NCBI GenBank assembly: GCA_015179045.1
Contig: WHUZ01000041.1
Span: 372,001 to 436,000 of the forward strand
Reading direction: 5' to 3'
Length of the DNA stretch: 64,000 nucleotides
Source of the DNA: Kalaharituber pfeilii
Taxonomy: Eukaryota; Ascomycota; Pezizomycetes; Pezizales; Pezizaceae
Below are positions 2,172 to 61,946 of the stretch, piece by piece; the stretch's first letter is position 1; the number at the start of each line of letters is the position of its first letter. A program made the translations under genes and the position numbers. The notes under the pieces were generated by a model. The model worked only from the letters and a program-made list of their open reading frames with translations, ran no database searches and was not told where the DNA came from.

Positions 2172-2630
2172 CAGTTTTCCCTTGCTATACCGGACCTCGT
2201 TGTACCGGAAACCTTGCTATACCGGATGCTCTCAGGTTGCTATATCCCGCTCCCATACAAAACCCTCTTTAGGGCGGCACGCGAGTATTGATATAAAAAA
2301 AAAAAAAAACCCTCTTGCTATACCGGACGCACTAAGAATACAGGAATTGCCAGGCACTTACCCCCCTGTCTCCATACAAATAATATTTGCTATACCGGAT
2401 ACACCAACACTGAAACGTCCAATCTTGGCTATCCCACATTGCATTCACCTTCAGATGCTTACTAAACTTAACATTACATAATAAAATTAGGCTGTCGTTG
2501 TTCCCAATTACATTATTTTTGCTGCCCATCCCTATTCTGTCCTGCCAAGCATTTTATTCTATAGCGGAACCTTGCTATACCGGACGAAAAAGGCCAGATT
2601 TTACAGATCCGGTATAGCAAGGGAAAACTG
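2172..2630. mobile_element. Tigger/pogo-like MITE (CAGTTTTCCCTTGCTATACC), copy A
   Basis: Terminal inverted repeats begin CAGTTTTCCCTTGCTATACC. The unit CTTGCTATACCGGA recurs inside. Copy B is uninterrupted at the same place (about 22560-22575), so the insertion site is TA; the right-hand TA has mutated to TC. There is no coding capacity. A lineage 2 micro-retroposon (2270-2307) sits inside. Related copies lie at 21846-22460 and 59843-60230. Confidence 0.8.
2270..2307 (+). mobile_element. Micro-retroposon, lineage 2 tail (38 bp)
   Basis: The body is only about 25 bases (TAGGGCGGCACGCGAGTATT...) plus poly(A), between two copies of AACCCTCTT (2261-2269, 2308-2316). The sister MITE at 59843-60230 has a single AACCCTCTT at the same place, so it is an empty site. 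The 5' end falls in the hairpin loop. Confidence 0.85.
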
Positions 2631-2929
2631 TCGGTTATTCCTGTTCGCAACAACATATGCCAAGAAACCATGAACCGACTTATCGGAAACTCCCACCGGG
2701 CACGCAGGGGGTGGATTATTACACGGCTGTGGCGCGATTCACTCAGGCAAGGATATTCAATAGAAGTAATTTGCAATGCCCCAATATGGCAACAATGACA
2801 ACGCAACACCCGCACAAATTTTGTGAGGTATTGCGCAGCCCCACAAAAATGCGAAAAATACTATGAGGAAGAAAGAACAATAAATATACTGCTAAAAACA
2901 AGACAGCTTGATAGTTGGAGTACCAAACA

Positions 2930-3340
2930 AGTCTTAATGACAGCATGAATGCTTGTAGGCGTGATAAGGACTAATCAATTGCAACTCCCAACAGTGAATG
3001 AAAGCATAACTGAAGTGCCGTTCTAACGGTCTCAAGTGAGCCTGGCGCGATCTCCAAATGGGGATAATGGGTGTGAAGGTTAGCCTTCACCTTGATCCCA
3101 GCATGTTCAATGGAGTTGAGACCCTGAGAGTAAAGTGCCCAGGCAGGAAGGAGTTGAATGCATTTCCTCGAAATCCATTCATGGTATCCTGGACCGTATG
3201 AGCCGGGGTATTATCCTACATAAAAGAAATATTTTCATGCCTGAGAGAAGTAGTCTATTTTCCATCAAGGTAGGCTAGACAACAAGGGAGTTCTTTTCAC
3301 AGCACCCTGGTATAATGTGATAACTGGCAAGCCGAATCTG
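2930..3340 (-). pseudogene. Tc1/mariner transposase relic, copy A
   Basis: Read on the minus strand, this is the equivalent of copy C 51090-51480, where a QDNVPAHTVQDTMNQF-like segment (Tc1 catalytic D-N-x-P-H motif) is followed by L-N-x-x-E/H. Stops and frame changes interrupt it in every copy. It does not encode a full transposase. Confidence 0.55.
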
Positions 3341-3537
3341 GTTACCGAATGAGGCTGATGGCCGAATACAGCTGACGATAGCAGCAGCCGAACGATGGGG
3401 TCGACATATGTAGCTGCGACTCAGGACGAAGCGACTAGATGCGCACTGACATAAAGATCGTCCCGACGGATCGAATGGGTAGAATGGTTAGCATATGCCT
3501 ACGTACCGACGAACAAGCCGGGGTATCTCATAGCTCA

Positions 3538-4204
3538 TAGTGAGCGGCACGAGCCGAGCCAGCTCGAGCTTAAGACAGCCAAGATCACGCTAGTGTTTCT
3601 CTTGACAGCTCGCTAAAATGCTCAGCCAGCGCAGGGTTTCATAAACTTGCAGCAGGAGTAAATGTAGAACAGTAGAAGAAATACTGAATTTAGCGGAAAG
3701 CGGCGAGGGGGATGAATATACGAGCGGGAGGGGCTGCGAGGGCTGCTTGGTCACGGTGAGGACTAGATATAGAGATACCGTTGAGTCTATTGAACGTAGA
3801 GTCGCAAGAACAGCAGGTTTATATACATGAGAAAGCATAGCATAACGTGACTTGTGAACCATGACTGAATAGGAAATTATCAGGGAAGATATCATATCAG
3901 GAAAGGTGAGAACGGCATGGGATGCGTGGCTTGCAAAGGGAACGCCGTGGCGTAAGCCACATAAAGCTGGCGTTGTGGCGTATTCATACACAATCCAATA
4001 GGGAGGTTAAATGCATGAGTGGAACGACAAAATAACAGAGAAGATAAATAATAATAGCAACAGGTGGCAACGGATGTAATGTTCCGACAATGAAGCTGTA
4101 GAATAGTTTAGATTAGTTATCAATATCATGTAATCAAGGCTCCCTGGCTCGAGCCCACCTTCTATTTGACGAGCTCGGCTCGAGCTAGCTCGTGCCGCCC
4201 ACTA
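3538..4204. mobile_element. hAT-like MITE (TAGTGAGCGGCACGAGC), 667 bp
   Basis: The ends are TAGTGAGCGGCACGAGC and its inverse GCTCGTGCCGCCCACTA. The flanks are ATAGCTCA (3530-3537) and ATAGCCCA (4205-4212), an 8-bp target duplication with one change. Copy C (about 50480) is uninterrupted here. Subterminal GAGCT/AGCTC repeats are dense. A 133-codon open frame inside shows no recognisable domain. Confidence 0.85.
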
Positions 4205-5424
4205 ATAGCCCATGTGCTATCTCTGTATTCCTTACATATAAACGAAGCTATCTACTTTTCGAGTCTCTGGATTTCTCCCCACAGGCCATAACCCACTTTT
4301 CTCATCACTAATAAAGCATTCTCATATCATTTCCTTGATTTCTGCACTTGTTTGCTCTACACATTCTGGTAGCCCCTTTTCCTCTGAAGTTCTGAAGATC
4401 CATTTCATATATGGGTCCGCACTACACCCCACTGAACGTTCATCACTTCAAATAACTTTAGTGAGCCAATCCCTATCGGTCCAGTGCGTATACCTCTTAT
4501 TCCACTCATAAGGTTTTTTGCAGTATCTGCAGTACTAATTATAGAGTTGGGGTTTCTTGTGATATTTTCGGATGTATGCTGCCTTTAATCTCTAGTAAGT
4601 TTTACGCCTATTAACCCCTGGTGCAATGTCACGACGCAGAGTTGCAAAAGTGAATGAGCGGTCCTGTCAGCTAGCTTTACGCAGTCTTTGATCAATCCGC
4701 ACAATAATCCTACCAGGTCGGCCTGATCTAGGTAAAGATACTAGTTCGGTTCGCTTCCACTGCTTTGATAGTATATTTGACAATGGAGATTTATACTCAT
4801 TGCTGATATCACGGAAGGGTGGACAAGCTCGTCGCATTCCAATATCTGGGTTGGGCATTTACTGGGGGTTTCTGGGAGCCATGGCGTCGATATCCTTGTG
4901 AAAAGTAAATAATTACGTGGCATGGTAGTTGATATCTGGAGTTACCAAGAACGGTTTCGCAAATACTTTTGTGCGATGATATGCTCTTGTCATAGCCCGC
5001 GGGGCGGCACTGATACATGAAAAAAAAAAGATACATATATGGGGTCAGCCCGAGCTAATGCTCTACCAAACAATCACGCATGTTCAATCACTTGGTAAAG
5101 CTGAATCCAGCGATTCACTAGCTCTCTGTTTGTTGATTGTCCATTTTGGTATTGCGGACTAGCATCGGTGTCCCACAGCAAGGGTGTCAGTTCCTTCTAT
5201 CAATTCCCTTCGTCAATCTTGGACTGTATAAGCAGCGTTTTCATCCTAGCCTGTGTATTTCGAAGGTACGTTACGGTCTCATCTTTAAGCAGCTATCTTA
5301 ATCATCTGAAAAAAAAAAACTTTTTGACCTGTTGCATGTTCTGCTAGATGTACGTAAAAACGCATGATTAGCAAAACTTCTTGTCATTGTAGTAAGCGTG
5401 TAGGTAGACTTTCGGAAAATGCAG
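4205..5424. other. Segmental-repeat DNA without a recognised gene
   Basis: This stretch is conserved in B (to 24760) and C (49090-50500). Only short frames occur and they change between copies. I see no domain, RNA gene or terminal repeat. Confidence 0.5.
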
Positions 5425-9328: not shown

Positions 9329-9763
9329 TTCATCGCCGTTTGCGTAGTATTGAATGCTATTGAGAAACAAGAGGTTGAAGGCTTTCCCCACGTTGGCAAA
9401 TGAGGTATTGAGGATAACGAAGTAGATTGTAACTGCATTATGTTGCGTAGCGAGACTGGGATGTGGGTGGGTGTTGACTTTATGATCGGTGTGCCGTCTG
9501 ACTGCATTCGGGTTGTTAACTACCAAGCGTTTGCCTCTACCTGTGGGACTTTATAATTCACAGGCGATAGATACTCTGTGAATTACCAGTACAGTTTCTT
9601 AAGTACAGTTTCTCAAGTATGTTCTATGGTACGAAGGGCATTTGCCAAGCCACACTAGTTCAGATGAGGAGGGGAGAATGGCTTCTGCTCCGTAACTTCT
9701 TGATCTTCAATCAAGAATTGCATCAACCTCCACACAATCATACATTATTTCACACTCCGCACC

Positions 9764-9802
9764 GTACCTCGCCATAGCCCATAGGGCGGCACGCGAGTAA
9801 TG

Positions 9803-9835
<33 letters not shown>
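9764..9835 (+). mobile_element. Micro-retroposon, lineage 2 hairpin (72 bp)
   Basis: GTACCTCGCCATAGCCCATA, then GGGCGGC and about 30 A. Target duplication CACTCCGCACC (9753-9763, 9836-9846). The inverted copy at 41030-41075 is uninterrupted. The 5' end lies six bases before the hairpin. Confidence 0.9.
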
Positions 9836-9836
<1 letters not shown>

Positions 9837-9876
9837 ACTCCGCACCACAGCTGGAGCCGCTGCGGTGCGGAGTGGA
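9836..9876. repeat. Foldback hairpin, copy A
   Basis: Inverted repeat CTCCGCAC...GTGCGGAG around a GGAGCC loop, with two mismatched positions. The perfect form is in copy C at 41033-41071. Its left arm was hit by the micro-retroposon at 9764-9835. Confidence 0.7.
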
Positions 9877-9879: not shown

Positions 9880-10715
9880 GGATCTACGTAGGTGTTGTCC
9901 TTCCCTTGCTCTTCTCACAGGGCTACTGATACTGTAGCTAACTCATCCATCTTCTCTGCAAATAGTATGGCTGGCCAGTCAAATAAGCCTACATTCACCG
10001 TCTGCTACACTACAATCAGTTCTGTGGGACTGCCGCGGCCCGTTGCTCCATCCACAAATGAACTCTTTGTACCACTTTTGATGCTGAAAAGCTAACAAAT
10101 GCCTCCAGTGGACCTAGGAGGGCAGCACGATACCGTGTGAGACTTCGGGAGCTTTTGGCCCAAGGGATCAACGTCGAAGGTTGCAAGGCTGCACTTACAT
10201 CACTTGACACTCTTCCCCCGGGCCCCGGAAGCCTTTGAAGAAAAAGTACCCCAGCAACTGCGGATAGGGCATTGGGAAAATTATTGGCTGGGCCTCAAGT
10301 GGGCTCCCCATGCAAGGTCAATATCGCTGCTTGCATCTCCATGCATGTGAACGGACAAATGGAAGTTGAGTATGGTAGGTACTATCTGGTCAGAGATGGG
10401 GAGCTTATCAGTGGGGCAGGGAAACTCAAGGACCTTGATGAGTTTAAGTTGTGGATCACACCAGACAGGGGTAACTTATGAATCGAGAAGGCGAGCTTGT
10501 CCTTTTTACTCCGTGTTATCTATCAATCCCTCAGAGCTACAAGAGGTATCTTATGCAGAGTATATGCACAATGTATACCATTACCGTCCTAACCCAAATG
10601 GTGATCACTATCTTCTTTCTAGTGTGAGGCCCCAATCCTACATATGCCTTTCTCCATACCAACAGATCCCAGTGGGCACCACCATGTCAGGGGCTAGTCA
10701 AACAGCTTCACTGCC
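9880..10715 (+). pseudogene. Unrecognised coding remnant
   Basis: Two plus-strand stretches look protein-like: one around 10098-10240 (..RAARYRVRLRELLAQG..) and one at 10272-10481 (..EVEYGRYYLVRDGELIS..). The continuation to 10710 (..QIPVGTTMSGASQTAS..) resumes after the micro-retroposon at 10716. Frames change between pieces, and the copy C equivalent is split by a MULE-like element. I do not recognise a family; a decayed transposon or host gene are both possible. Confidence 0.3.
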
Positions 10716-10772
10716 CTGCCATGGCGAATAGCTGCATGCGGGGTCACGTGATAAAAAAAAAAAAAAAAAAAT
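10716..10772 (+). mobile_element. Micro-retroposon, lineage 1 hairpin (57 bp)
   Basis: CTGCCATGGCGAATAGC...GCGGGGTCACGTGAT plus poly(A). Target duplication AGCTTCACTGCC (10704-10715, 10773-10784). The copy C site near 38625-38640 is empty. The 5' end is at the base of the hairpin. Confidence 0.9.
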
Positions 10773-10904
10773 AGCTTCACTGCCAGCAGTAATCGATATG
10801 AGCAACGACGTTCTGCAAGGGTTTGGCAAGCAAGCCAGAAAGCTTGAGCACGACACACCTGCGAACCAACATCATACACCCCATACAGGATACAGTACAC
10901 TCTC

Positions 10905-10975: not shown

Positions 10976-11200
10976 AGATTCAGTCATATAATATACATGA
11001 CACTAGCTATACCAACACTAAATGCCTAGATAAACTCGCATATGGCATACACTAAATTCTGCTCAATCGCTAGTTCTCTTTTGCTATTGTTGTACAGGCA
11101 ATCAGTATCGGTTCTTTGACTGGGAGTGTTAGGTATACATATTAAAAGGGGAGTATGGTATGGCGACGCGGGAAATACCCCAAGGTTGAGGTTCGCCGGA

Positions 11201-11258
11201 GGTCCTGTCATGGCGAACAGCCGCAAGCGGGGCTATGTGAGGAAAAAAAAAAGAAAAA
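11201..11258 (+). mobile_element. Micro-retroposon, lineage 1 hairpin (58 bp)
   Basis: GGTCCTGTCATGGCGAACAG...GCGGGGCTATGTGA plus an interrupted A run. Target duplication GGTTCGCCGGA/GGTTCGCTGGA (11190-11200, 11259-11269). It is also present in copy C (37540-37601), so it predates the duplication. Confidence 0.85.
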
Positions 11259-11269
11259 GGTTCGCTGGA

Positions 11270-13549: not shown

Positions 13550-13575
13550 GTGGTTGCCATTATGGCAAACTGGTT

Positions 13576-13661
13576 AAGCGCTTTGAGGGTTTAGACCCAG
13601 GGGCCCTGCCATGGCGAACACCCGCATGCGGGGTCACGTGACAAAAAAAACAAAAAAAAAC
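13576..13661 (+). mobile_element. Short retroposon, lineage 1 tail (86 bp)
   Basis: About 68 bases of LINE tail (..GGGTTTAGACCCAGGGGCCC..) with the hairpin and interrupted poly(A). Target duplication GCAAACTGGTT (13565-13575, 13662-13672). The copy C site near 37500 is empty. Confidence 0.85.
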
Positions 13662-13944
13662 GCAAACTGGTTTTATTGGACTCTTGTTAGAAGCTGCACT
13701 ATATGCTGTGGTTGGATAGTCCAGTTATATTTTTCGATCCTTCTGAATTCAAGTGGCCCGGCGTGATAGTGAGATAAATGGAGGAAAATAGGAATCTGCG
13801 TGTCTGAGGAGAATATCGATTGGAACAGGGAGGATAGTTGAAGAGGAGCAATCAAACTACCTACTTAGATACTAGTCGCCAAGACTTGGGGAATGCTGCA
13901 CTGATATTTGACCAACCACTTACTCTCCACTGTATGTATCTCAC

Positions 13945-17529: not shown

Positions 17530-17720
17530 TCTTCTGTAGCCTGTTCCAGAGGCTTTTCCGGAAGCTTTTGCGGAGGCTGTTCTGAGGCTGTTCCGGAGGT
17601 CGTTCCGGAGGTTGTTCCGGAGGCTACTTCGGAGGCCGTTTCGGAGGCCGTTTCGGAGGTTGTTTCGGAGGCTGTTTCGGAGGCTGTTTCGAAGGCTGTT
17701 TGAGCTCGAACAGCCTCTGG
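17530..17720 (+). repeat. 12-bp minisatellite (GTTTCGGAGGCT)
   Basis: About fifteen imperfect units of GTTYCGGAGGYT in tandem, part of the TIR element. Open frames through it read (V/A)SEAVSEVVPE repeats. Units are homogeneous locally (TTCCGGAGG first, then TTTCGGAGG). The inverse copy lies at 46435-46670. Confidence 0.8.
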
Positions 17721-25328: not shown

Positions 25329-25346
25329 GTAGCCTCTCTTCTGAAG

Positions 25347-25402
25347 TCGCCATAGCCCACAGGGCGGTAAGCGATATATGATATAAAAAAAAAAAAAAAA
25401 AA
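25347..25402 (+). mobile_element. Micro-retroposon, lineage 2 hairpin (56 bp)
   Basis: TCGCCATAGCCCACAGGGCG..., poly(A). Target duplication TCTCTTCTGAAG (25335-25346, 25403-25414). The 5' end is one base before the hairpin. It lies just inside the gypsy LTR. Confidence 0.9.
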
Positions 25403-27907
25403 TCTCTTCTGAAGGGAGAGCTCCAGCGAACTTCAGGGTCGGGGTACTAGGTCTTCGTATGTGCTACTGGTCTCTGTAGGGGTGGTGGTCGAGGTTTGGC
25501 AGGGTAGGAGTTGTAGAAACGTTGGACCAACAAGGGGGCATGAGCACATGACTCTGCAGGTTCCCAGTGTGATGACGGCTCAACAGCATCCACTGTTTCG
25601 CACGGGTACCGGTGTCTAGAGCTGGCGGAATGAAGCCTCACAGGCGGCCTCAATAATCAAATGCTAAGGAAAGGGTCTTCAATTGTCTTGTCTGTGCGTG
25701 TCCATATCTGTATATCTCCGTGTATGTCTCCATGTATGTCTCCATATGTGTTTCCATCCATGTCCGTTGCTGCTTGCTTCCTGCTTCCACAGTCCTATCT
25801 ACATACAATTTATAGACCACCTTCGCCTCCCAACTGAGCCTATACATACATATCTCGCTTCTTAATCATAATTTTCTTCCCATGTGTCATCATGTGGCCC
25901 TACCGCTGAGTACCGCTCCGGCCCGCGTATGGCCTTATTCTTTCCATCGGTACCGTGGTTACCACCACACCAGGTGAGGTGGTCGTAACCAGTATAGTGG
26001 ACGAGGTATTCCAGCTTATTGTACCTTCAGTGGGAGTCAAGGATTTCTTCAACTTCGTACTCCTCTTCATCTTTAACAATGACGAGGGGTGGCGGTTCTT
26101 GGGTCTGGCCAGGGAGAGGGTCGGTGGCGACAAGTTCAAGCAAGGAGGTGTGAAACATGGGATGGACGTTCATTGAGGGGGGGAGTTCGAGCTTAAATGT
26201 ATGAGAGGAAATCTTCTTTTGGATCTTGAACCTTCCCAATCTCTTATAGTCAAGCTTTCTAGAGGGTCATGTAGTATGCAGGTTTCGTCCAAGTAACCAG
26301 ACCTCATCACCGATGTCATACTTGGGTATGAGTAGGCGATGCTGGTCGGAGTTTTCAGCCTGTACAACTTGTGCCCACTTGATTTCAGTTCGCAGGTACT
26401 CCTCGAGGGCCTGTAGGTGGTCAACATACTTCTGAAGGACCAGAAGGATGGGTAACTTGGCGTTGGGCTTAGGGAGTAGGGTGTAGTGCGGATGGTAGCC
26501 ATAATTGGCGAAGAAGGGAGTTACTCCTGTAGTTGAGGACAGAGTATTATTGTATGTGAATTCGGCTAAGGTGAGAACGTCAGCCCAGTTGTTCTGTTGG
26601 TAGTTGCAGTATCCCCGCAGGTACTGTTCCAGGATTGCATTGACTCACTCGGTTTGTCTATCGGTCTGGGGATGAAAGCTGGTTGAGAGTTTCTGTTAGA
26701 TTCCGAGAAGTTTGCAGAGAGTTCTGGAGAATTTGGAGGTGAACTGGGTACTCTTATCGGAGACAATAGATTCTGGCAAGTCATATAATCTGAATACATA
26801 ATCAAAAAAGAGCTGGGCAGTATTCTTGGAGTTAGCATCGGACCGGGTAGCGAGGTAATGTACCATTTTCATGAGGCAGTCCACTACGACTAAGATCATA
26901 TCCTTACCATTAGATTCAAGCAGTCTGGTAATAAAGTCCATGGACAGAGAATTTCAGCTTCATTGAGGTATTTCTAAGGGTTTCAGGACTCCGTAGGGTG
27001 CATGACAAACAGGTTTGATATAGGAGCAGATGTCACAGTTCTAGATGTAGCGAGCTATAGTTGTATGCATACTAGGCTAGTAGTAATTTCAAGACAAAAT
27101 CTCATATGTTGAATCTTGTCCTGAGTGTCCTACTACGAGGTGTTATCGCCATAGCCCATAGGGCGGCATGCGATTAATGAAAGAAAAAAAAAAAAAAATA
27201 CTACGAGGTGGTTATAACAGGTATGAATAATCTTGGTTCATAGTTCAAGGTTGTCAGAGATATATACCAGTCTGTAGATGTATAATAAACTATCCTTGAA
27301 GTCATATTCTCTCAGAGAGACTTTAGAGTATCATTTTTCTCCTCTTTCCAGTACCTTCTGTATATCTTGAGCGAAGGAGTCGGTCTGGGTTAGGGTCTAG
27401 ACCTTGGCTTCATGACTATTTACTATAGTATTCAAAGAGAAGGAGGAGAATTTTTTGCCTAAAATGATTTCTTATATTGGCTTAGCACGATTATCCCCCT
27501 CCTTAAGAAGATCTCCAGATTGTCTTGTCAGCATGTCAGCTTTCCCGTTCTTCTCTCCGAGGCAGAAGGTAATCTTAAAGTTGTATTAGGCTAACTCGCC
27601 TGCCCATCGAGCTTGGCAGCAGTTCAACAAAGTCTTTGATTTGAATATTTCTAGGTTGTGATGGTAAGTAATGATGGTGAATGGCTGTAGTAGTGCATGT
27701 AGGCATATATGCTACTTATTAACTGCCTGTATGATAGCCAATAGTTCCTTATCTCCAATTCCATAGTTGCTTTCTGCTGGTGACATTTTCTTACTTATAA
27801 AAGCGACTGGGTACAGTACCATTTTGCTGTTCTCGGGGAATTTTTGTAACAGGATTCCAGATGTAGTATAGTTGGAGGCATCAGTTTCCAAGATTGTTTC
27901 CAGTTTA
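25403..27907 (-). pseudogene. Ty3/gypsy chromovirus pol, degraded
   Basis: Minus-strand pieces in pol order: RNase H near 27890-27700 ([15 protein letters not shown], then [20 protein letters not shown]), integrase core (26941-26570: MDFITRLLESNGKDMILVVV, LPESIVSDKSTQF), and a C-terminal segment with a chromo-like end (26239-26027: FKLELPPSMNVHPMFHTSLL, EYEVEEILDSH). Stops and frameshifts separate them. Gag, protease and the first part of RT are missing. A micro-retroposon splits it at 27142-27198. Confidence 0.8.
27142..27198 (+). mobile_element. Micro-retroposon, lineage 2 hairpin (57 bp)
   Basis: GTTATCGCCATAGCCCATAG... with A-rich tail. Target duplication TACTACGAGGT (27131-27141, 27199-27209). 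Confidence 0.9.
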
Positions 27908-29430
27908 GGTTTTTTTTTTTTTTTTTTTTTAATATCACGTGACCCCGCTTGTAGCTGTTCGCCGTGGCAGGGCCCCTGGGTCTATACCCTCAAAGCCCGG
28001 AGGCAGGCTTGTCTAACTACATCTTCCACCGCCATCTCTACAAACGAAAACATCGACCCCTCCCCGCCCCACTTCTCCGAGGCACTTAAACCCGCATCCA
28101 CATACACTCCCCTCCATCGCTTTCCCGATCCTTACTTCCCACTCCTTCCCCATCCCCTTTCCCGTTCTCAGTCTCGTGAACGCCGTTGCAGCCCCCCTTC
28201 TCCACTCCATCACTGCGCCCCCCCCCCCCGTACCCCCTTCCTCTTTCTGCCGCGCGCAGTCGCTTCCACTTCTGCCGCAGCCCCCCTTCTGTCACCACCG
28301 ACCTCCCTATCCTGTCCGCCGCCTTCTTTGCTTCAACGTCCGCCGCCTCGTTGCCGGCGATACCAATGTGTGCCTTGACCCACATCAGTTTGACGTCTCC
28401 CCCTCTCCTCTTTCTTTTTGCAATTTCGTCCACCACCCTCCTTAGGTCTCCGGTTCGTGCTCTCCCTAATCTTCCTGCCTTCTTCACTGCCGCGATTGCT
28501 GCCTGTGAATCGGTTAGGACGACTACGTTCGCCGGTGCCGGTACTGTTTTTTCCAACCCCCTTCTCATCCCCTTCACCTCCCCGTCCCACACCGTCGCCC
28601 CCGTTCCCATCTCTTCTCCTCCCCCGCCGTCCCATTTCCAAAAACCCCCTCCTACTCTCCCCTTCTCATTCATACTGCCGTCCGTATAGACGGCCCCTGC
28701 CCCCTGCGTTGCCCAAAAGATCGCTGACTCCCACTCCTCCGCTCCCCCCCCCTTTGCGACCTTCGCTATTGGCCTCTTCTACCTCCACTTTCGCACATCT
28801 CCCTCCCCATGACACTTCGTCTACCCTCTCCGGCATTACGAAGCTCACTGTGCTCTGTACCCTTCCCGCCACCGACTCGAACCCGTCCTTCTTCTGTGTC
28901 TCCCACCCCACGCTCCAATCCTTCCAGTCCCGACCCCGCTCCTCCACGTCCCCCTCCCCCCTGAAGTCCGCGGTCCATATGTCTCCACAGCCCTCCGGGT
29001 CCCCCATACTTCTCGCTACAAACCGCGCCTGTGCAGCGTCTAATGCTGTCTCCGCACTCTCCACTCCGGCGATCCAGTTGACTTTCTGCATCGCTGCTCC
29101 GTGGACAGCACCCGTGGCCTTTTTCAGTACCTGGTACTGAATCTTTTCCATTTCCCTCCTCCACTCTTTCTGCCCCCTCCATCCTATTTCCGAACCCCAC
29201 ATCATCACCGCTCTGATCATCCCCGTGTACAACTGTCGCCAGCTCCGTGGGCTCATCCCCCACTGCCCCTCGCCCACCCCCATCATGGCTCCCATGAGCT
29301 TTCTCGCCTTCTCTATCCTCGCCTTCCAGTGGAAGTCGAAGTCTAGAGTCGTATCGAAGATTACTCCCAGCCATTTCACTCTCCACCTCCTTCCTCTTTC
29401 TCTTCCCCTTGCCGAAGACGATGTCTTCGT
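27908..29430 (-). pseudogene. Lineage 1 LINE, 5'-truncated
   Basis: T run at 27910-27930, then the ACCCCGCTTGTAGCTGTTCG hairpin. Two overlapping frames (29379-28666 and 28673-28086) hold the RT thumb (KWLGVIFDTTLDFDFHW) and RNase H (WDGEVKGMRRGLE, LTDSQAAI, KAHIGIAGNEAADVEAKKAA); the catalytic-side TDGS region lies at the frame break near 28680. Sequence before the thumb is gone, and the copy abuts a lineage 2 LINE head to head near 29430. No target duplication pairs with the left end. Confidence 0.85.
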
Positions 29431-29434
29431 GCTT

Positions 29435-31276
29435 CATTTCGTCGGAGATGACATAAAGGCAGCCTTCAATCACGTTCGGAGCGAGAGGGTAGCCCAAAGG
29501 ATCGAGAAAGAGGACCGAAACATCGCGGCGTTCGTACAAGGCTTTAGCGAACCAACGAAATTCACCCTATCATGGGACGGGAAAGAAAGAGGACAAGGCG
29601 AGATGACGGATGGGGTCCCGCAGGGATCCCCACTTTCCCCGGTCCTATTCCTGGCAGGAGTGGCACCACTCGCAAAGAAAACGGAGAAACGACAGTACAC
29701 ACGGACATATGTCGACGACTTTCACAGTGTGATATCCAGCAAATCGCTGAGCCAGCTGAGGAAAGATATCAAGGAACACAGACGCATACTAACCCAGGAA
29801 GCCAGGGAGGAGGGTTTTGAGATAGACCCTAACAAGGCGGAGACATTGATAGTGGGGGTAAAGGGGAAGAGTTACAGACTGGTCGGACTAAAGGTGGACT
29901 GGGAGCTAAAGTTCAACGAGCACTTCGACAAACGGATACGGCTAGGGAAAGCGGCGTGGAACACGGCGTCCAGGCTCACCAAAATACCTCCGAGCAAAAG
30001 AAGACAGCTATACACGAGTATAGCCAGAAATATCGCAACATACGGGAGCTGGGCCTGGCTCAACTACGCGAGAGGGGCACCGGCGGAGAGGAAACTCAGG
30101 GAGCTGGAAAAATGGCAGTATAGCGTAGCGAGAAATATCACAGGGGCCCCCTGGGGCACCAGGAGGGCGATAGTCGACGGGATCATCAATCTGGAGTCAG
30201 TACAAGCGTTCGTAACAGGGGAAGGGGAGAGGGTTGAGGCTCGGGCACTGAGATTTCCGGGAGAAAGGATCGCCAACCCGGAACCGGACTCCACGTACCT
30301 GAGAGGCGACCGAAGGCACAAAGACCCATTACCGTTACACACCGTCCCCACGCACCCGAGCGACACGAGCAAGGACGAGTGGGAGGCCATCATAGAAAGA
30401 GAAACGGATGAAGGGTGGAACGGGGTGTACACGGACGGGAGTAGAATAGAGGGCACGACAGGAGCAGGGGTACACCACCGGCACGAGACAAAGTCCTTTT
30501 ACTTGGGGAGAAGGAGCACGGTAAACGACGGCGAACTCATAGCAATAAGCGAGGCATTAAAGCTAACGGGTGAGCTACTAATCGTTACCGCTCACAAACG
30601 GCGATAACAAAACTGCAGAAGATAGCGGGAGGAGAACCTACAGCCAACGGAGCTTCCAACATGGTGAGGAGACGGTGGGAAGAACGAGCGGCCAGAGGGG
30701 ACTTAGACCTCGCCATCATCTGGGTCAAAAGCCACAAGGGAATCAGAGGTAACACGGAAGCGGACCGAGCCGCAAAGGTCGGCACAGCCCTGCAGTGTGA
30801 GGATGAGATCATAACGGAGGCGGGAATAAGACAGGATTACAAGGCGAGGAGAGCCGCGGAGAGGAACCAGGCAGAACTCAACTACCGGCCGACACAACGA
30901 GCAGATAAGCGCCGGTACCTGGCCACCCTGGCCGGAATCCTGGGGAACAAAGGCCTCAAGGAATGGAGATACAAGATAGGGAAGGCGGATTCACCGGAAT
31001 GCCGATGGTGTGGCCAGGCGTCAGAGAGCTGGGAACACATAAGGAGTGACTGCATCGCCTGGAACCGAAAGAACACGAAAGTAGCAGAAGGTATAAGACA
31101 GGTGGAAAAAGGCACGAATCTGGTGGAGTTATTGGAGTGGGCCGGGGAGGACTAGATATTTAAGGATTTAGTTTCTGTTCTAAGTTTTCTTTTCCTTTTC
31201 TCATCTATGTACTTAAACATCGCCATAGCCCACAGGGCGGCACGCGATTAATGAAATTAAAAAAAAAAAAAAAAAA
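29435..31276 (+). pseudogene. Lineage 2 LINE (Tad1-like), 5'-truncated
   Basis: Starts inside RT (DDIKAAFNHV), then GVPQGSPLSPVLFL and YVDDFHSV, the thumb, and RNase H (GVYTDGSRIEG, VNDGELIAISEAL). A frameshift near 30590 moves to the frame 30661-31155 with IIWVKSHKGIRGNTEADRAA and a C-terminal zinc knuckle (CRWCGQASESWEHIRSDC). The 3' end is the CGCCATAGCCCACAGGGCGG hairpin and poly(A) at 31260-31276. The protein sequence is clearly different from lineage 1. Confidence 0.85.
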
Positions 31277-37228: not shown

Positions 37229-37539
37229 AGTGAGATACATACAGTGGAGAGTAAGTGGTTGGTCAAATATCAGTGCAGCATTCCCCAAGTCTTGGCGACT
37301 AGTATCTAAGTAGGTAGTTTGATTGCTCCTCTTCAACTATCCTCCCTGTTCCAATCGATATTCTCCTCAGACACGCAGAGCCCTATTTCCCTCCATTAAT
37401 CTCACTATCACGCCGGGCCACTTGAATTCAGAAGGATCGAAAAATATCACTGGACTATCCAACCACAGCACATAGTGCAGCTTGTAACGAGAGTCCAATA
37501 AAACCAGTTTGCCATAATGGCAACCACCTCCAGCGAACC

Positions 37540-37601
37540 TTTTTCCTTTTTTTTTTTCATCTCACATAGCCCCGCTTGCGGCTATTCGTCATGGCAGGAC
37601 C
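37540..37601 (-). mobile_element. Micro-retroposon, lineage 1, shared with copy A
   Basis: Flanked by TCCAGCGAACC and TCCGGCGAACC. Orthologous to 11201-11258. Confidence 0.85.
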
Positions 37602-37734
37602 TCCGGCGAACCTCAACCTTGGGGTATTTCCCGCTTCGCCATACCATACTCCCCTTTTAATGCAATTCGGGCTCGTGCTGGTTTGCGGTCATCTGCCTTC
37701 GCCCTCTGGAAGCAATTGACGTATTTCCAGCAAT

Positions 37735-38521: not shown

Positions 38522-39443
38522 CCTGTATGGGTTGTATGATTGGTCCGCAGGTGTGTCGTGCTCAAGCTTTCTGGCTTGCGTGCCAAACCCTTGCAGAACG
38601 TCGTTGCTCGTATCGATTACTGCTGGCCGTGAAGCTATTTGACTAGCCCCTGACATAGCGGTGCCCACTGGGATCTGTTGGTATGGAGAAAGGCATATGT
38701 AGGATTGGGGCCTCACACTAGAACGAAGAGAGTGATCACCATTTGGTAAGGAATGTAATGGTATACATTATGCATATACTCTGCATAAGTTACCTCTAGT
38801 AGCTATGAGGGATCGATAGATAACACGGAGTAAAAATGACAAGCTCGCCTTCTCGATTCATAAGTTACCCCTGTGTGGTGCGATCCACAACTTAAACTCA
38901 TTAAGGTCCTTGAGTTTCCCTGCCCCACCGATAAGCTCCCCGGGATGGCTCGGGACAGGTACTTTTTACCTGTCCACTCAGGGACAGGTAGTTCCTTGTA
39001 CGGTAAGCGGATCGCCAGTGGCGTGCGCTAATATGCAGAAGTTTTCAAGGGTTACGATTCAGAGGTACCTAAGCCAAGATATTATGTACAATACCTGAAC
39101 ATCTAAATAGGTGCAGTGGAAGATACCTGGGACCTTGATGCAACAAGAATATCCTGCGTAGCTTGCGTATCCTCTTCAAGCTCAACTACACCTGAGGAGC
39201 CTTCTCTATGGCGCTTTCTAGTATTTCTTGCAGCAGCTGTTCATTCAGCCAACTCAGCAGAGGTCATAGCATGCACTTTAGCTTTTCCCTTGGTCTTATT
39301 CTGACGAAATTGATTTGAAGCTGGTGGTACAAATTGCTAGATAATTGGCTGAGCACCATGACTAGCAGGTGTGCTGGTGAACATTCATTGCGTGTGGCTG
39401 GTATGAGTATGCTACAAACATGCAAAAAGCTTTGCCTTCTCAC

Positions 39444-39502
39444 TATTTTTTTTTTTTGTTTCTAATATCATTGATCGCTTGCCACCCATAGGGCTATGGC
39501 GA
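39444..39502 (-). mobile_element. Micro-retroposon, lineage 2 hairpin (59 bp)
   Basis: T run, then ATATCATTGATCGCTTGCCA, CCCATAGGGCTATGGCGA. Target duplication TGCCTTCTCAC (39433-39443, 39503-39513). The 5' end is one base before the hairpin. Confidence 0.9.
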
Positions 39503-39580
39503 TGCCTTCTCACCAGTAAGGGTACCATATAACTGTCCTTGGTCATATACTGATTGTAGAAGGAGATGTCAGCCTTGGTT

Positions 39581-39624
39581 TTTTTTTTTTTTTTTTTTTT
39601 TTTATATCATTACTCGCATGCCGC
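39581..39624 (-). mobile_element. Micro-retroposon, lineage 2 (44 bp, 21-base body)
   Basis: T run and ATATCATTACTCGCATGCCGC only. Target duplication TCAGCCTTGGTT (39569-39580, 39625-39636). The insertion ends in the 3' arm of the hairpin. Confidence 0.9.
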
Positions 39625-41032
39625 TCAGCCTTGGTTAGTATATTGGTCCTGTGGCTGCTGTTGAGGTATTGTAATAGGTAGATCTGGAGGTACTTCTCTG
39701 TCGGGCATTGTCTATTTTATGGGTGCTATTGGACATTTGATTTGCCAGTGTGGATGGAGAAGCTAAAGAGAAATCTGTTGATTTGCATAAACAACAACTA
39801 CAAATCCAGTAACTGATGCATAGTCTTGAAGACGATGTAATACATCATTAATAAAAGCGTACTGCTCTTCAGTGATTGGAGTACTTCAATGAAGTTCAGG
39901 AATATCATATCTAATATTGCCTATTTAGGTATAAAAAGATATGCATAGGAGATAGGTATTGGTAAGAAGAATAAGACCGAGATGATAGGTAATGCTAAAT
40001 GTTAGGTAATGCTGATTGAGAGTGGGCATGGCAAGTTATTGAATAAGCAGAAAATATATGCCAGAACAGTTTTCAAGAGCCTTATATACTATTAAAGCTC
40101 TTCAGCCAAGTATTTACAAAATTGCGGTAACAGCTTTTTTTACTTATTATTCAGCCATTTACTATAGTAGGACGCAGTAACAACACAAGTACATAATAAA
40201 TGGTCTGTATTACTGGTAGACTTAATGGATGTATGGCTAACTTCGGGGGTAGTGGCAGTTGGGTTTATTGAAAGACCACCACGTCCTGGCTATCAAGTGG
40301 TAACTAGTAAATGATTCCGCGACAGCAGAGGCGAAAGAGAAAAGCTGTGAGTGGGTAGCAACCAATATCTTCGACATACATGAAGTTGTACTCCGGTACA
40401 TGCGAGGTCGCCACCCTTGAAAACTCTGCATATTAGCGCACGCCACTGGCGATCCGCTTACCGTACAAGGAACTACCTGTCCCGAGTCATCCCGTAAGCT
40501 CCCCAACTCTGACCAGATAGCACCTACCTTACTTAAATTCCATTTGTCCCTTCTCATATATAGAGATGCAAGCAGCTATTTTGACCTTGCATGGGGAGCC
40601 CACTTGAGGCCCAGCCAATAATTTTTCCAATGCCCTATCCGCAGTTGCTGGGGTACTTTTTCTTCAAAGGCTTTCGAGGGAAGAGTGTCAAGTGATGCAA
40701 GTGCAGCCTTGCAACCTTCGACGTTGATCCCTTAGGCCAAAAGCTCCCAAAGTCTCACACGGTTTCGTGCTGCACTCCTAGGTCCGCTGGAGGCATTTGT
40801 TAGCTTTTCTGCATCAAAAGTGGCATAAAGAGTTCATTTGTGGATGGAGCAACGGGCCGCGGCAGTCCCACAGAACTGATTGTAGTGTAGCAGACGGTGA
40901 ATGTAGGCTTATTTGACTGGCCAGCCATACTATTTGCAGAGGCGGCTGTTTGAAGATGGATGAGTTAGCTACAGTATCAGTACTTCTGTGAGAAGAGCAA
41001 GGGAAGGACCACATCTATGTAGATCCGCGTCC

Positions 41033-41071: not shown

Positions 41072-41390
41072 GAAATAATGTATGATTGTGTGGAGGTTGA
41101 TGCACTTCTTGATCGAAGATTAAGAAGATACAGAGCAGGAGGAGCAGAAGCCATTCTCCCTGAACTAGTGTGGCTTGGCAAATTCCCGTCATACCATAGA
41201 ACATACTTAAGAAACTGTACAGTTCACGGCTCATACAAGTATCTATCGCTTGTCCATCATAAAGTTCCCACAGATAGAGGCAAACGCTTGGTAGTTAACA
41301 ACCCGAATGCAGTCAGAGAGCGATTTCGGCACACCGATCATAAAGTCAACACCCACTCACATCCCAGTCTTGCTACGCAACATAATACAT

Positions 41391-41420
41391 AGAGTACTGA
41401 TATAAAAAAAAAAAAAAAAA
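41391..41420 (+). mobile_element. Micro-retroposon, lineage 2 (30 bp, 13-base body)
   Basis: Only AGAGTACTGATAT plus A, between ACATAATACAT (41380-41390, 41421-41431). The copy A site (about 9440) is empty. It is the smallest insertion here. Confidence 0.8.
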
Positions 41421-41551
41421 ACATAATACATTTACCATCTACTTCGTTTTCTTCAGTACCTCATTTGCCGGTCCAGTAACATAGGAATGTCGGGAAAGCC
41501 TTCAACGTCTTGTTTCTCAATGGCATTCAATACTACCCAAATGGCGATGAA

Positions 41552-42693: not shown

Positions 42694-43123
42694 AAAGGCT
42701 GAAGAGAAGTAAACTGAAAAATAAACATCCACGCCGCCTGACGGTTACACAAAGTTAACCTGCATACCCCCCTAGATCAGCGAAGCCACGAGGCAATTCT
42801 TGGACACCACTTGCAGACATTTGCCAAAATAAGATAGGGGTACTGAAAGACATACCCACTTTATCTGATGCCAAACTTATACTGATAATTTAGTACAAGC
42901 TGTAATCATTAGCCTACAGTAATATATCATACCATTTAGCTGGATTTTTAATCTTCAGACAAACTGACAAGTAGTTTTCAGACTACACGTATCTGATCGG
43001 ATACTGTCGGAGATGAAAAATCGCGAATACTTTTTGGTCGAAAATCTATATAACAAATTGCCATAAAAAACAAGTATTCGCCCGGAGACCTGCAATTCTT
43101 AAGGAAACCGAGTCATGTAGGTA

Positions 43124-51056: not shown

Positions 51057-51640
51057 ATACCTTGATGGAAAATACTTCTCCCAGTCATGAAAATACTTCT
51101 TTCATGCAGGATAATGTTCCGGCTCATACGGTTCAAGATACCATGAATCAATTTCGAGGAAATGCATTCAACTTCTTCCTGCCTAGGCACCTTACTCCCA
51201 GGATCTCAACTCCATTAAACATGCTGGGCTCGCCATAGCCCACGGGGCGGCATGCGAGTAATGATAAAAAAAATAAAATAAAAAAAAGAACATGCTGGGA
51301 TCAAGGTGAAGGCTAACCTTCACACCCATTATCCCCATTTGGAGATCGCGTTAGGCTCACTTGAGACCATTAGAATGGCACTTCAGGATGCTTTCATTCA
51401 CTGTTGGGAGTTGATTAGTCCTTATTATCTCCAGAATCTTGTCATATTAGCATGCTTACAAGCGTTCATGCTGTCATTAAGACTTGTTTGGTACTCCAAC
51501 TATCAACCTGTCTTGTTTTTAGCAGTATATTCATTTTTCTTTCTTTCTCATAGCATTTTTCGCATTTTTGTGGGGGTGCGCAATACCTCACAAAATTTGT
51601 GCGGGTGTTGCGTTGCCATTGTTGCCATATTGGGCATTGC
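51057..51640 (+). pseudogene. Tc1/mariner transposase relic, copy C
   Basis: MQDNVPAHTVQDTMNQFRGN and then LNMLG/SLETIRMAL-type remnants of the end of a Tc1 transposase. Its frame is broken by the micro-retroposon at 51229-51288 and by older changes. Confidence 0.6.
51229..51288 (+). mobile_element. Micro-retroposon, lineage 2 hairpin (60 bp)
   Basis: CTCGCCATAGCCCACGGGGC.., interrupted A run. Target duplication AACATGCTGGG (51218-51228, 51289-51299). The copy A site is empty (CCCAGCATGTT near 3097). Confidence 0.9.
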
Positions 51641-54110: not shown

Positions 54111-54851
54111 CATTGCAACTGGCAACATCGTAGTGGCAGTGTTACGGATTGCAACCGACCGTTTGCAAACCGTTGCACCAAAAGGTAGAACTACCGGTAC
54201 CACCCGGTAGTGCGGTCGGTATATATAGGAGTATCCGTACGGGCCGGTCAGCGACTCGCTTACGTTTGCGCACGTGGTCAAGGATCTTGGCTCCCTTGGA
54301 CGTCCACACGTACTAGTAATCAGCTTCCCTCTGCCGCCATGGCACGCCAAGCCGTGACAGGCAGACTCTACACTCGAGGTTGACGAACTTCTTCCATCCC
54401 TATGGCCCGGCTTCTCATGAGAGAGTAACTCCAGCATTCGCCTTGGCAGCTAGGACCGAGATTGAAACGTTCCTTCCTTCCAATCCGCACAGCTTTGGAG
54501 TGTCTTACGAGAAATGGAGCAAGAAACGAGGATACCTACGTGATCCAGAACATCATGCTCCAGCCTCTAACCGCACCAGGGTTTTACACCTCCAATGGAC
54601 TGCGAGGGTTACCATCAGGCCAGGCCGTGATCGGCAATGGACTGAAACCGCCTGGACCAGCCGGACTAACCAGGCCGGCCTAGGCAGGTTGGGCCGGTCC
54701 AGGGCGATCTTATTTGCCTAGTCCGGCCGGCCGTTAAAATACCAATAGTAGGGCCTTCAATACCCACTACTTCAAAATCACTCAAAAACGTTCCCCGAAT
54801 TCTCATCTGCACACACGTCAAGCTACCCACTACAACATTAGCTCACTCCCC

Positions 54852-54918
54852 TTGCCCTGCCATGGCGAACAGCTACAAGCGGGGTCATGTGATATAAAAA
54901 AAAAAAAAAAAAAAAAAA
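54852..54918 (+). mobile_element. Micro-retroposon, lineage 1 hairpin (67 bp)
   Basis: TTGCCCTGCCATGGCGAACA...GCGGGGTCATGTGATAT plus A. Target duplication GCTCACTCCCC (54841-54851, 54919-54929). The copy B site is empty (GGGGAGTGAG near 18277). Confidence 0.95.
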
Positions 54919-54975
54919 GCTCACTCCCCGAGCCTCAAGAGCACGCACCACTGAATATCGATATCCACACAGCCC

Positions 54976-57635: not shown

Positions 57636-58878
57636 CTATTGCACCGAACCTTTCCTCCACATATCCTGCAGCCCAAACCCCTCTTCCGCTAAATTACAGA
57701 TCTTGTTCACGTTCTCATCTTCTGGCTCCCCTCCCTTCAGCCCCCATTTCCGCGCATACACTCCCTCGCCATGTCTAATTAACTTCTGCAACTCTCTCTC
57801 AAATGCCGCAGGGTTCCTATAAAATGGCTCCCCCTTTCCGCCGCGCTGCTGCGCTTGCCAATAATTCCTGCCGCCCTCGCGGGTATTTTTTTTTACGCTC
57901 CAGCTCCTCCAGCTGTCCGCGTAGCGTCGCCCAGCGTGTGCCGGTGGTGGACTCTGCGCGCTCAGACTCGGGCTTGTCAAGGAGCTCGGCGTGCGACGGG
58001 TGCGGAAAGAGCAGGGCCAAGTCCGGGAGGACGTTGCCGACGTCGTAGACGTGTCCTACCTTCTCGTCGAGCAGGCTGAAACCCGACATCTGCAAGCGTG
58101 CGTAAAAGTCGCAGTCAGTGAAGTAGTACGGGATGAAAGTGTCCCACCCCCCGATCTGCTTGACCGCAGCGACATTCACCAGCGCCAACCGGTCGTACGA
58201 AAAGAACTTGTATGCCCATTTGTCCTCGGGATTCGCCGAGTCGATTTTGTGCAGCACGGAGATGATCAGGGAGTAGAATGACTGGTACGGAACTTGGTCC
58301 TCGTACCCGACCACTACGGAGTCCATGTGACTCCAGAAGAATCTACCCCAGTTGCGCTTCGTCGCTTCGTAGATGTAGAAGTTTTGCAGCTGGGCAAAGG
58401 TCAGCAGGGTCGGGGTGGTGATGACGTTCACACCGAGGGTGTTGAGGAGGTGCTCGTGCGGGAGGTAGAATGGATTGCCGGGGGAGAGAAGGGCGAGGGA
58501 GTTGGAATCCATGACGCCGGTGTTTTCGATGACGTAGATTTGAGATGGGGGCCAGCCAGCGGCGATGTACGAGAGTACGGATTGTTGGAGGATGGCGTAG
58601 TTGCGGGTGAAGCCGATAAAGAGGGGGGTGAGCGGTGGATTTTCGGGTGGCTTGTTCAAGGGGTGGACCGCCGGTAAAGGCTGTCCCTGGGGGGGGAATC
58701 GGGGGTCGACAGTGGGTTCAGATGTATGCAGCTCTGGGTCTGAGATTTCCGTGTCGCCATTTCGAGATCTGGATGGGTACGAGGATAGGAACGTTGACTG
58801 CTTCATCGTGAGCAACAGTAGCGCGCCGATGGCGACAGAGAGAAGCAGGAGAACCCTGCGCCGAGGGTTTGAGAACAT
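57636..58878 (-). CDS. Type II membrane glycosyltransferase-like protein, with a frameshift
   Basis: Probably a Golgi glycosyltransferase. The start at 58878 gives a short basic N-terminus and a signal anchor (RVLLLLSVAIGALLLLT, residues 8-24), a Pro-rich stem (about 40-80), then a GT-A-like domain with FIGFTRNYAILQQSVLSYI, VIENTG, RFFWSHMDSVVV (acidic metal-binding candidate), GGWDTFIPYYF.TDCDFYARL. The frame ends at 57817, but at a run of nine A (57894-57886 on the minus strand) it leaves a second frame, which continues ..EPFYRNPAAFERELQKLI..YARKWGL..DMWRKGSVQ to 57636 and looks like the true C-terminus. A base-count error in the run, a real mutation or slippage would all explain it. The exact GT family is not assigned. 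It lies outside the segmental repeat and looks like ordinary host sequence. Confidence 0.65.
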
Positions 58879-60398: not shown

Positions 60399-61310
60399 TC
60401 GCGCCCTCAACTTGACTGTATATATATGTCCCTCTATCTACCGCCAAACCAAGACAGACCACTGCTGCCTGAGTTAAAAAGAAATTAGTACAGCGAATGT
60501 AGTACTTATAGTTTGTCAATGCTGGGTGTCAATGGGCTCGATGCAGATTCGTAGTCAGATTGGGAGCTAGTCTGAAAATACGACAATGGTTGCACCATCT
60601 GTGAGCTCGATTCAAATCTCAGTTACCCATATGTACGTTGCTGCCTGGTTGCGCTACCCCCGTTGGACTGCATTGAGAAGATGACATGCTGTCGGGTCAC
60701 GAAGGTAGTAAGTTGCTCGATTCTACTTTCTACTGGAATGTCCTCAGCACGTCAATGGACTGAATCTTCGTACAATCTTCAGCCCTGTGCGTTTGATGAA
60801 AAATCAAGTATCTCCATGCGACACATACGAAAGCGCGCGCTAAAAGTAAAAGAGCCCAGTTCAAATGGTCTTTTGAAAGAGAGGAATATATTGTTATGGT
60901 CACAAACCACTGCTTTCAAAACAATTGAATTTTCACATACTACTGCGAATTGGTAATGGGGAACCCCATTTTAAGAAATTTAGTAAGTAATGCGAATTAC
61001 TAGAGACTATATGCCACTACATATTACCACGTACGTGTATTGACTTTAATCTTTTGCAATATGCCTTATCTAATTCAAAGAGCTATAATACAACAAAAGC
61101 TTAGGAGGGATATAAAAGCTATTATAATGCTTCTGATTCTTAATTGACATATGATGAACCTATAAAGGGGATAGGTATACATTATTTGTATTTGTGAATG
61201 CATCTTAATATTGACGTGATTGGGATATGAATACGCAGGTGATGCATATAATATGAAATAATCTGGGTGTATACAGTAAAGTAGGCTACTAACTGAGTTC
61301 TACCTCATCT
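60399..61310. other. No recognised gene
   Basis: A 97-codon frame (60663-60956) is unrecognised. The second half is AT-rich. Confidence 0.35.
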
Positions 61311-61334
61311 CGTACCGTCTGGTCGGGCATGCCA

Positions 61335-61690
61335 TACCTGTCAAATTCAGTTCATTGTGCCTGGTCTCGCGACGTCAGGTCAGGCCTGCCATCTGCGTCA
61401 AATTCAGCTTATTTGCATCATCTGGTGCCTTGGGTCGGGCCTGCTATACATGCCAAATTAAGCTCATTCTACCTCATCTCGTGTGGTCAGTTTGGGCCGG
61501 CCATGCCTGTCAAATTGAGCTCATTCTGCCTCACCTGACGCCGCGGGGCCGGACCTGCCATATCTATTAAATTCAACTCATTCTGCCTCATCTCACGCCG
61601 TCGGGCCGGAACTGTCATATCTATCAAATTCAGCTCATGTTGCCATATCTTGCGCTGGCGAGGGAGACCTGTTATGTTTAAGTTGAGCTC
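61335..61690. repeat. 57-bp minisatellite, about six units
   Basis: The word CAAATTCAGCTCATT recurs at 61342, 61399, 61454, 61511, 61568 and 61625, mostly 57 bases apart, with a decayed unit near 61680. Each unit also has TGCCTCATCTC and CGTCGGGCCGGACCTGCCAT. As 57 is 19 codons, reading frames repeat in register; the minus frame 61753-61487 has (M)RQNELNLIDMAGPA-RRR units. Confidence 0.85.
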
Positions 61691-61880
61691 AGGTTGCAGG
61701 CACTTCGGTCCTTTAGCATAGGCCCAAGCTATATCAAATGTGACTGGGTGCATTCCGGCGCGAGGAGTAACAAGTAACTATGCTGACGACGAGTGGCCGC
61801 GATTCCTATTCTATGTAAGAATAAACTCCTCCCGAAGGTTATCCTTAAGTATATGGAGCGTGTACTCTAACCTCAATGTA

Positions 61881-61919
61881 CTGCCATGGCGAACAGCTAC
61901 AAGCGGGTCAGGTGAAATG

Positions 61920-61946
<27 letters not shown>
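61881..61946 (+). mobile_element. Micro-retroposon, lineage 1 hairpin (66 bp)
   Basis: CTGCCATGGCGAACAGCTAC, AAGCGGGTCAGGTGAAAT and about 28 A. Target duplication AACCTCAATGTA (61869-61880, 61947-61958). The 5' end is at the hairpin base. Confidence 0.95.

Follow-up and report, generated by a model that had tools for sequence, protein, structure and literature searches.

Short LINE insertions in Kalaharituber pfeilii with 5' ends at the base of a 3'-proximal hairpin

What sets the length of a retroposon copy that consists of little more than a hairpin and a poly(A) tail? The question is raised by a stretch of 64,000 nucleotides (nt) from the ascomycete Kalaharituber pfeilii (assembly GCA_015179045.1, contig WHUZ01000041.1, positions 372,001 to 436,000 of the forward strand), referred to here as the window, in which an initial annotation listed 13 very short insertions carrying the 3' end of a long interspersed nuclear element (LINE). 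The 5' truncation of LINEs is an old question, and the usual answers are weak processivity or host interference. The annotation had claimed that the 5' ends of these insertions cluster at the base of the LINE's terminal hairpin, and it named a smooth 5' end distribution as the observation that would speak against this. We find the cluster also in a sample chosen without regard to length, and a smooth distribution fails both in that sample and in the genome counts for the lineage that we call B.

Two sets of loci were assembled from the genome searched (78.03 Mb in 360 contigs, the window being a stretch of contig C297). The unselected set comprises every A-tail on both strands of the window and of C2:1-200000. 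The anchored set comprises 120 loci elsewhere (40 for lineage A, 40 for B, 20 for A3, and 20 for C; these names, and B2, were assigned in this analysis) and was chosen only by the last 22 bases, 7 of them A, a choice blind to bodies shorter than 14 to 15 nt. The anchored loci are the first in listing order rather than a random draw (A and A3 from C1 and C2, B from C1 to C7, C from C2 to C17), and the C set includes one B2-type locus (L144). Direct repeats across each tail were called with a distance-corrected score, which passed 145 of 336 real tails and 16 of 1342 mismatched pairings used as a chance control. Among 330 non-redundant tails, 99 without a lineage were set aside, 21 of which had a duplication (window sites 2270, 25347, 41391, and 61881 among them); also dropped from the final count were a tail counted twice (51280) and an artefact (C2:97040). 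The final set is 122 distinct hairpin-lineage insertions of less than 400 bp, each with a target duplication. Poly(A) tails and target duplications are thus both present, as expected of LINE-made retroposons, and so are empty sites in sister sequence: the fetched sequence contains an empty homologous site for 39 of 124 insertions overall and for 18 of 73 near-flush ones (offsets -3 to +7), although both totals count one insertion twice and the 124 also hold one artefact.

Where, then, do the 5' ends fall? Relative to the outermost base pair of the terminal stem, 64 of the 122 lie at -1 to +5, a 7-nt zone in which about 2 would be expected if ends were uniform; the others lie inside the hairpin (below -1; 22, some of them doubtful cases that adjoin other hairpins, such as L078 and L086), at +6 to +60 (12), or beyond +60 (24). 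The binomial p for the flush count is ~4e-78 under a crude null, a uniform 400-nt range. The unselected set alone gives 26 of 56 flush. A predicted helix starts at the 5' end in 67 of 73 flush copies versus 133 of 606 controls, and in 12 of 26 longer truncations versus 84 of 260 shifted controls, no clear excess. Could this be ordinary random 5' truncation, with the cluster arising from the selection of examples or from microhomology? The longer truncations of the same families do appear random, but an ordinary 5'-truncated LINE should have scattered ends without a preferred site, and the cluster recurs in the length-blind sample, in the whole-genome counts, and at a second hairpin. Lineage B copies, moreover, share the same starting G behind many different duplication ends. 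The count of 64 in 122 refutes random truncation for the flush class, and we give it almost no credence.

The flush share depends on lineage. It is 26 of 71 in A, 36 of 46 in B, 1 of 3 in B2, and 1 of 2 in C within the 122-insertion set, and 29 of 39 in B, 6 of 39 in A, 2 of 20 in A3, and 1 of 20 in C within the anchored sets, whose denominators are all non-redundant hairpin tails, long copies included. Even in lineage A, 26 starts occupy the flush zone against 5 in the following 55 nt. The initial annotation's picture of two LINE lineages is therefore too simple, since more than two are present and they differ strongly in the frequency of flush copies. Flush bodies measure ~37 to 46 nt and dominate lineage B, where 14 of 46 bodies begin exactly at the G of the closing G-U pair; five others begin CCCTGCC, one base after that G and behind a duplication that itself ends in G, and these may share the same start. 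The lineage C copies L129-L148 appear mutually alike and are nearly all long, unlike B.

The same contrast appears genome-wide. Intact LINE 3' ends followed by poly(A) number 2416 for lineage A (CGAG type), 1397 for A3 (CGAT type), 1282 for B, and 186 for C, with 0 matches to the reversed control pattern for each. The hairpin of B, the only lineage for which hairpin and flank were compared genome-wide, has 1849 matches, of which 192 retain the nine adjoining upstream LINE bases (at most 3 mismatches in each count). Mutation is an unlikely cause of this drop, because among the first 100 exact hairpins listed only 12 have an exact flank and 88 do not. Extrapolation of the sampled flush shares to these tail counts suggests ~1,470 flush insertions with intact tails (~950 B, 370 A, 140 A3, and fewer than 10 C), a figure derived from a nonrandom sample. 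On G000:C1 (2.99 Mb), LINE tails are dense in the first 565 kb and sparse beyond, which suggests repeat-rich and repeat-poor compartments.

The hairpins themselves behave as RNA structures. Among 65 distinct hairpins, the outermost pair of lineage A is C-G in 42 and A-T in 23, and the apical pair is C-G in 46 and T-A in 16; other stem bases are partly preset by the motif search, so that only the unconstrained pairs are informative. Because these outermost and apical pairs covary, we take the terminal hairpins to be real RNA structures, and a 3'-terminal stem-loop with compensatory changes is what stringent-type LINEs possess. Folding of longer LINE context adds 1 to 2 pairs to the lineage B stem past the closing G, and "flush" in that lineage accordingly means within a base or two of the stem base. 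The lineage C hairpin has the most stable predicted fold of the five that were folded.

Does the effect belong to the terminal hairpin alone? Lineage B carries a second hairpin upstream of the terminal one, AAGCCTGCCTCCGGGCTT, and 20 loci were picked only for an exact second hairpin plus the 5' half of the terminal hairpin. By the repeat call, 10 of the 20 begin at -2 to +2 of the second-hairpin base (these 10 include L149, the locus that appears as L100 in the main set), and two further loci, L156 and L167, seem flush with it by eye, L156 resembling a copy of the L152 site. The body extends into the LINE at five loci (L150, L153, L155, L164, and L168), and the 5' ends of L157 and L161 lie 89 and 79 nt upstream. 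At L151, 15 T's stand between the target duplication and a flush second hairpin; they are possibly an untemplated addition to the complementary DNA (cDNA). Genome-wide, 228 matches to the second hairpin fall to 85 once seven upstream bases are added, and flank variants make 85 an under-count. In the second-hairpin class (offset 25 to 45), a helix starts at the 5' end in 2 of 7 copies versus 22 of 70 controls, a low score because the 60-nt cut lets other folds win; a 93-nt fold pairs from AAGCC.

Are the flush copies a separate element, or are they products of the same LINEs as the longer copies? A pyrimidine|A junction is common to the flush (65), inside (17), and long (24) classes, and the three have alike a median duplication of 13 and a median tail of 20 to 21, so that target motif, duplication, and tail are as in the longer copies. 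Because junction motif, duplication length, and tail length agree, one LINE machinery made all classes. Given poly(A), target duplications, and a target motif in common with long copies, the insertions are retroposons of the LINE machinery, made via target-primed reverse transcription. Their 3' part is also like that of the autonomous copies: in both A and B the hairpin consensus is equal for flush and other copies, many hairpin subtypes are represented among the flush copies, and 17 of 30 flush copies in A and 29 of 41 in B are within one base of a sampled non-flush copy. A short interspersed nuclear element (SINE)-like entity, in which a small gene or lineage of its own yields a hairpin-plus-poly(A) transcript and spreads independently, would explain the precision and predominance seen in lineage B, and flush copies do cluster somewhat among themselves (1 of 300 shuffles as high in B, 12 of 300 in A), in a comparison against every non-flush tail, a group that probably includes flush copies with worn duplications. 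Against such an entity stand the shared consensus and the many subtypes; a promoter would presumably not fit in a 40-nt copy, and no Rfam family was found in the window at the gathering threshold, promoter boxes not having been searched by model. We therefore think a SINE-like element improbable, and the simplest reading of these sequence relationships would be recurrent origin from LINE RNA rather than one SINE family.

Why should the 5' end sit at a hairpin base? Coming from the poly(A) side, reverse transcriptase meets the 3' side of the hairpin first. The usual stop, in all three stems (A terminal, B terminal, and B second), is on the exit side, at the 5' base, with the whole hairpin copied. 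Because this stop lies on the far side from the point of entry, a block by the terminal hairpin is unlikely. A block at its 3' side as the main cause was rejected: it would give bodies of ~10 to 14 nt, and the window and C2 set hold two (41391, 13 nt, and C2:111012, 10 nt), the anchored loci being blind to bodies this short. The annotation had offered two mechanisms, and of these a hairpin that blocks the enzyme is disfavored, while a discrete short RNA is favored, if not proven.

From the pattern of these ends, we lean, if only just, toward a processed RNA consisting of hairpin and poly(A) as the template for most flush copies. The template would be a short piece of LINE RNA that already begins at the base of a 3'-proximal hairpin. 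We speculate that LINE RNA is degraded or cut and that its upstream single-stranded part is taken off by a 5'-to-3' exonuclease or by a cutter of single-strand/double-strand junctions, while the hairpin, possibly bound by a LINE protein that recognizes it, and the poly(A) tail would be protected; the protein-bound remnant would then be inserted. RNA that survives as far as the next hairpin would give an insertion that ends there, and hence the second size class of lineage B. Of the 36 flush B copies, 15 have 1 to 4 extra bases at the junction, and in 11 of these the added letters are not simply the G's found there in the LINE flank. Both the extra bases and the T's of L151 would fit an enzyme reaching the end of its template.

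Several observations weigh against a processed template. Lineage C, with the most stable hairpin, is flush at only 1 of 20 loci, and hairpin strength alone is thus not decisive. In the 122-insertion set, 22 copies begin inside the hairpin, and the further 1 to 2 pairs of the B stem leave the preferred G a little way within it. Folding also predicts weak helices upstream of the flush points, in 12 of 22 flanks for A and 3 of 5 for the second hairpin. Extra junction bases are known at ordinary LINE truncations too. Five candidate template-jump chimeras were examined, and only one, C2:97040/96988, is conceivable. In that region (C2:96988-97040), the 35-A tail of a LINE precedes a hairpin fragment of 17 nt and a further 22 A's, the arrangement being either a nested insertion or a template jump. 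In another nested arrangement, L123 is a flush micro-insertion seemingly inside the terminal hairpin of another LINE copy.

The upstream helices bear on a different idea, in which the enzyme works on a long RNA and drops off. It might grip the terminal hairpin by its tail-binding region and leave once the hairpin has been copied, or a structure met just upstream might prompt it to leave the template; taken jointly, these two versions seem to us possible, though unlikely. Drop-off accounts for the stop on the exit side, and it could explain the lineage contrast (B 36 of 46, A 26 of 71) as differences between proteins; such a tail-binding region is documented for ORF2 of zebrafish LINEs in the available part of one report (PMC4176376). 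The helices in 12 of 22 A flanks, and a weak GGGT/ACCC stem upstream of the lineage B flush point, are of the kind that the second version needs, but for A, control windows contain such helices at least as often (53 of 77). An equally flush stop at the second hairpin would require a second grip, and precision to one G in lineage B exceeds what a lost grip would lead one to expect.

Could the ends instead be made after reverse transcription? If RNase H stripped the RNA, a 3'-to-5' exonuclease could shorten the 3' end of the cDNA up to the folded hairpin, which would likewise yield ends flush with hairpin bases, and LINE open reading frames (ORFs) in the window do have RNase H domains. Against this, the B stem contains G-U pairs, which are C-A mismatches once copied into cDNA, and still no lineage is more precise than B; longer truncations have no clear preference for helix starts. 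Trimming of this kind is doubtful, and clearly more so than drop-off.

Each of the 13 listed window sites proved to be an insertion that carries LINE 3'-terminal sequence and poly(A) and lies between direct repeats. A duplication is present at every one, although the 9 to 12 bp claimed for it is slightly low against the 11 to 16 bp measured (one mismatch is included in each of the repeats at 10716, 11201, and 39444). Nine of the 13 bodies begin within 4 nt of the stem base, in keeping with the claim, and empty sister sites, also claimed, were found for seven in the fetched sequence. The sites are cited here by their listed positions and lie on the plus strand unless marked. In lineage A, site 9764 (9752..9846; body 9764-9807, 44 nt, offset +4; tail 9808-9835) has the duplication ACACTCCGCACC and an empty site at 41011-41158; site 25347 (25335..25414) has a 38-nt body at 25347-25384 and a tail at 25385-25402; site 51229 (51218..51299; body 51229-51265, 37 nt, offset 0) has empty sites at 3049-3186 and 22990-23101. 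The offset of 25347 (-1) and that of 61881 (-3) were read by eye, these being motif variants missed by the automatic family call. Two sites are of A3 type: 27142 (27131..27210; body 27143-27183, 41 nt, offset +2) and, on the minus strand, 39444 (39433..39515; body 39458-39502, 45 nt, offset -1). Lineage B contributes 10716 (10700..10784; body 10716-10752, 37 nt, offset -3; tail 10753-10771; empty site 38578-38714), 11201 (11189..11269; body 11201-11242, 42 nt, offset +1; tail 11243-11258), 54852 (54840..54929; body 54852-54895, 44 nt, offset +2; empty site 18228-18366), and 61881 (61869..61958; body 61881-61919, 39 nt). A 14th insertion, of lineage B on the minus strand (37526..37613; body 37558-37598), lies in a duplicated segment and probably goes back to the event that produced 11201.

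The remaining four sites begin elsewhere. Three have bodies too short for the whole hairpin: 2270 (lineage A, 2259..2316; body 2270-2294, 25 nt; tail 2295-2309), with its 5' end in the loop or 3' arm; 39581 (lineage A, minus strand, 39569..39636; body 39604-39624, 21 nt, 3' arm only; empty site C2:102362-102500); and 41391 (41379..41431; 13-nt body 41391-41403 without hairpin; tail 41404-41421; empty site 9395-9513). The 11-bp duplication of 2270, AAAACCCTCTT, comes from a 60-bp local search, a wider repeat search preferring a better-scoring tandem-repeat match. The fourth, 13576 (lineage B, 13565..13672; body 13576-13642, 67 nt; empty site 37454-37527), is a two-hairpin insertion whose 5' end lies at the second hairpin, upstream of the terminal one. 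Its body begins at the AAGC of that hairpin, the middle of which is missing (AAGC joined to GCTT), as though the enzyme had jumped over it.

The window also contains longer copies. A B-lineage copy at 27910..29400 (minus strand; 5' limit approximate) has an RNase H ORF at 28086-28673 and retains terminal hairpin, second hairpin, and LINE flank, making it a source-type copy. Next to it, an A3-type copy at 29400..31276 (plus strand; 5' limit approximate) has reverse transcriptase and RNase H ORFs and ends in an A-type hairpin plus A18. Pfam matches for the LINE ORFs of the window are RVT_1 and RNase_H; a Pfam search of 57817-58878 and 8372-8740 gave no match, nor did a search of the reverse transcriptase ORF against PDB. 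A 115-nt lineage A insertion on the minus strand (42536-42708) is flanked by a duplication of 15 bp, and its sister site at 8251-8385 is empty. In two sister segments on the minus strand (20920-20953 and 1090-1135), A26 and A35 tails follow AATGATAT-like ends only, and no target duplication was found at these tails. Elsewhere, an ORF at 43286-44383 with DDE_1, Tc5-type, and Psq DNA-binding domains encodes a DNA transposase, and a 12-bp minisatellite, CTGTTTCGGAGG, occurs on opposite strands at 17541-17701 and 46424-46651.

What would follow if uncapped LINE hairpin-poly(A) RNA with its 5' end cut at the hairpin base were a regular template that gave rise to about a thousand insertions and in lineage B outnumbered all longer copies? 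We hold this broader proposal tentatively, at a little less than an even chance. If it is correct, an entire class of insertions owes its size to RNA processing rather than to failure of the enzyme, and a retroposon unit need be no more than a recognition hairpin plus a tail. Truncation here occurs at a definable RNA structure, recurs at a second hairpin, and depends on lineage within one genome, and whether truncation is set by the template or by the enzyme thereby becomes a testable question. The finding illustrates the small size that a mobile unit can have, and insertions of ~40 bases are easily overlooked by repeat annotation with length cut-offs.

How do these insertions compare with known systems? 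With 5'-truncated LINE copies they share the LINE 3' end, poly(A), target duplications (10 to 18 bp in the flush class), and the target motif of long copies; they differ in having discrete 5' ends linked to hairpin bases and in the dominance, within one lineage, of bodies of ~37 to 46 nt. UnaL2 and ZfL2-1/ZfL2-2, LINEs of the stringent type, likewise carry, just ahead of the tail, a conserved 3'-terminal stem-loop in which compensatory changes occur. Recognition of the stem-loop by stringent LINEs is established in the accessible portions of three reports (PMC4176376, PMC5135761, PMC3747384), the first of which describes binding by ORF2 of the zebrafish elements, and the second of which names Tad1 in fungi beside other LINE families with a 3' stem-loop. 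There, so far as those portions go, the loop is a recognition site and not the edge of an inserted copy; recognition in K. pfeilii would hold by analogy. SINEs that share a LINE 3' end, such as Mg-SINE, are also short, noncoding, of LINE-type 3' end, and inserted by LINEs, but flush copies are far shorter, and no tRNA or promoter head or separate lineage was seen, with the limit on promoter boxes given above. In Magnaporthe, the MINE chimeras and MGL truncations also show fungal LINE reverse transcription leaving its template at preferred positions; in the part of the account available, these are preferred template-switch sites downstream of a sequence motif (PMC2104539), whereas here the site is a structure and no fused second RNA is seen. 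Yarrowia, too, has many very short pieces of a fungal LINE, the Ylli fragments (30 bp to 1 kb), for which the available text identifies no target duplications and describes no discrete end (PMC5014426). Retrocopies of microRNA genes in placental mammals are L1-made copies of hairpin-holding RNAs, with host RNA genes as the source according to the portion at hand (PMC7692494), whereas here the source is the LINE's own 3' end. LINE copies with 5' ends at the base of a 3' hairpin were not found among the open-license titles and abstract openings listed, which is weak evidence of absence. The observation itself is sound: these are discretely truncated LINE copies, new within the known class of truncated LINE copies.

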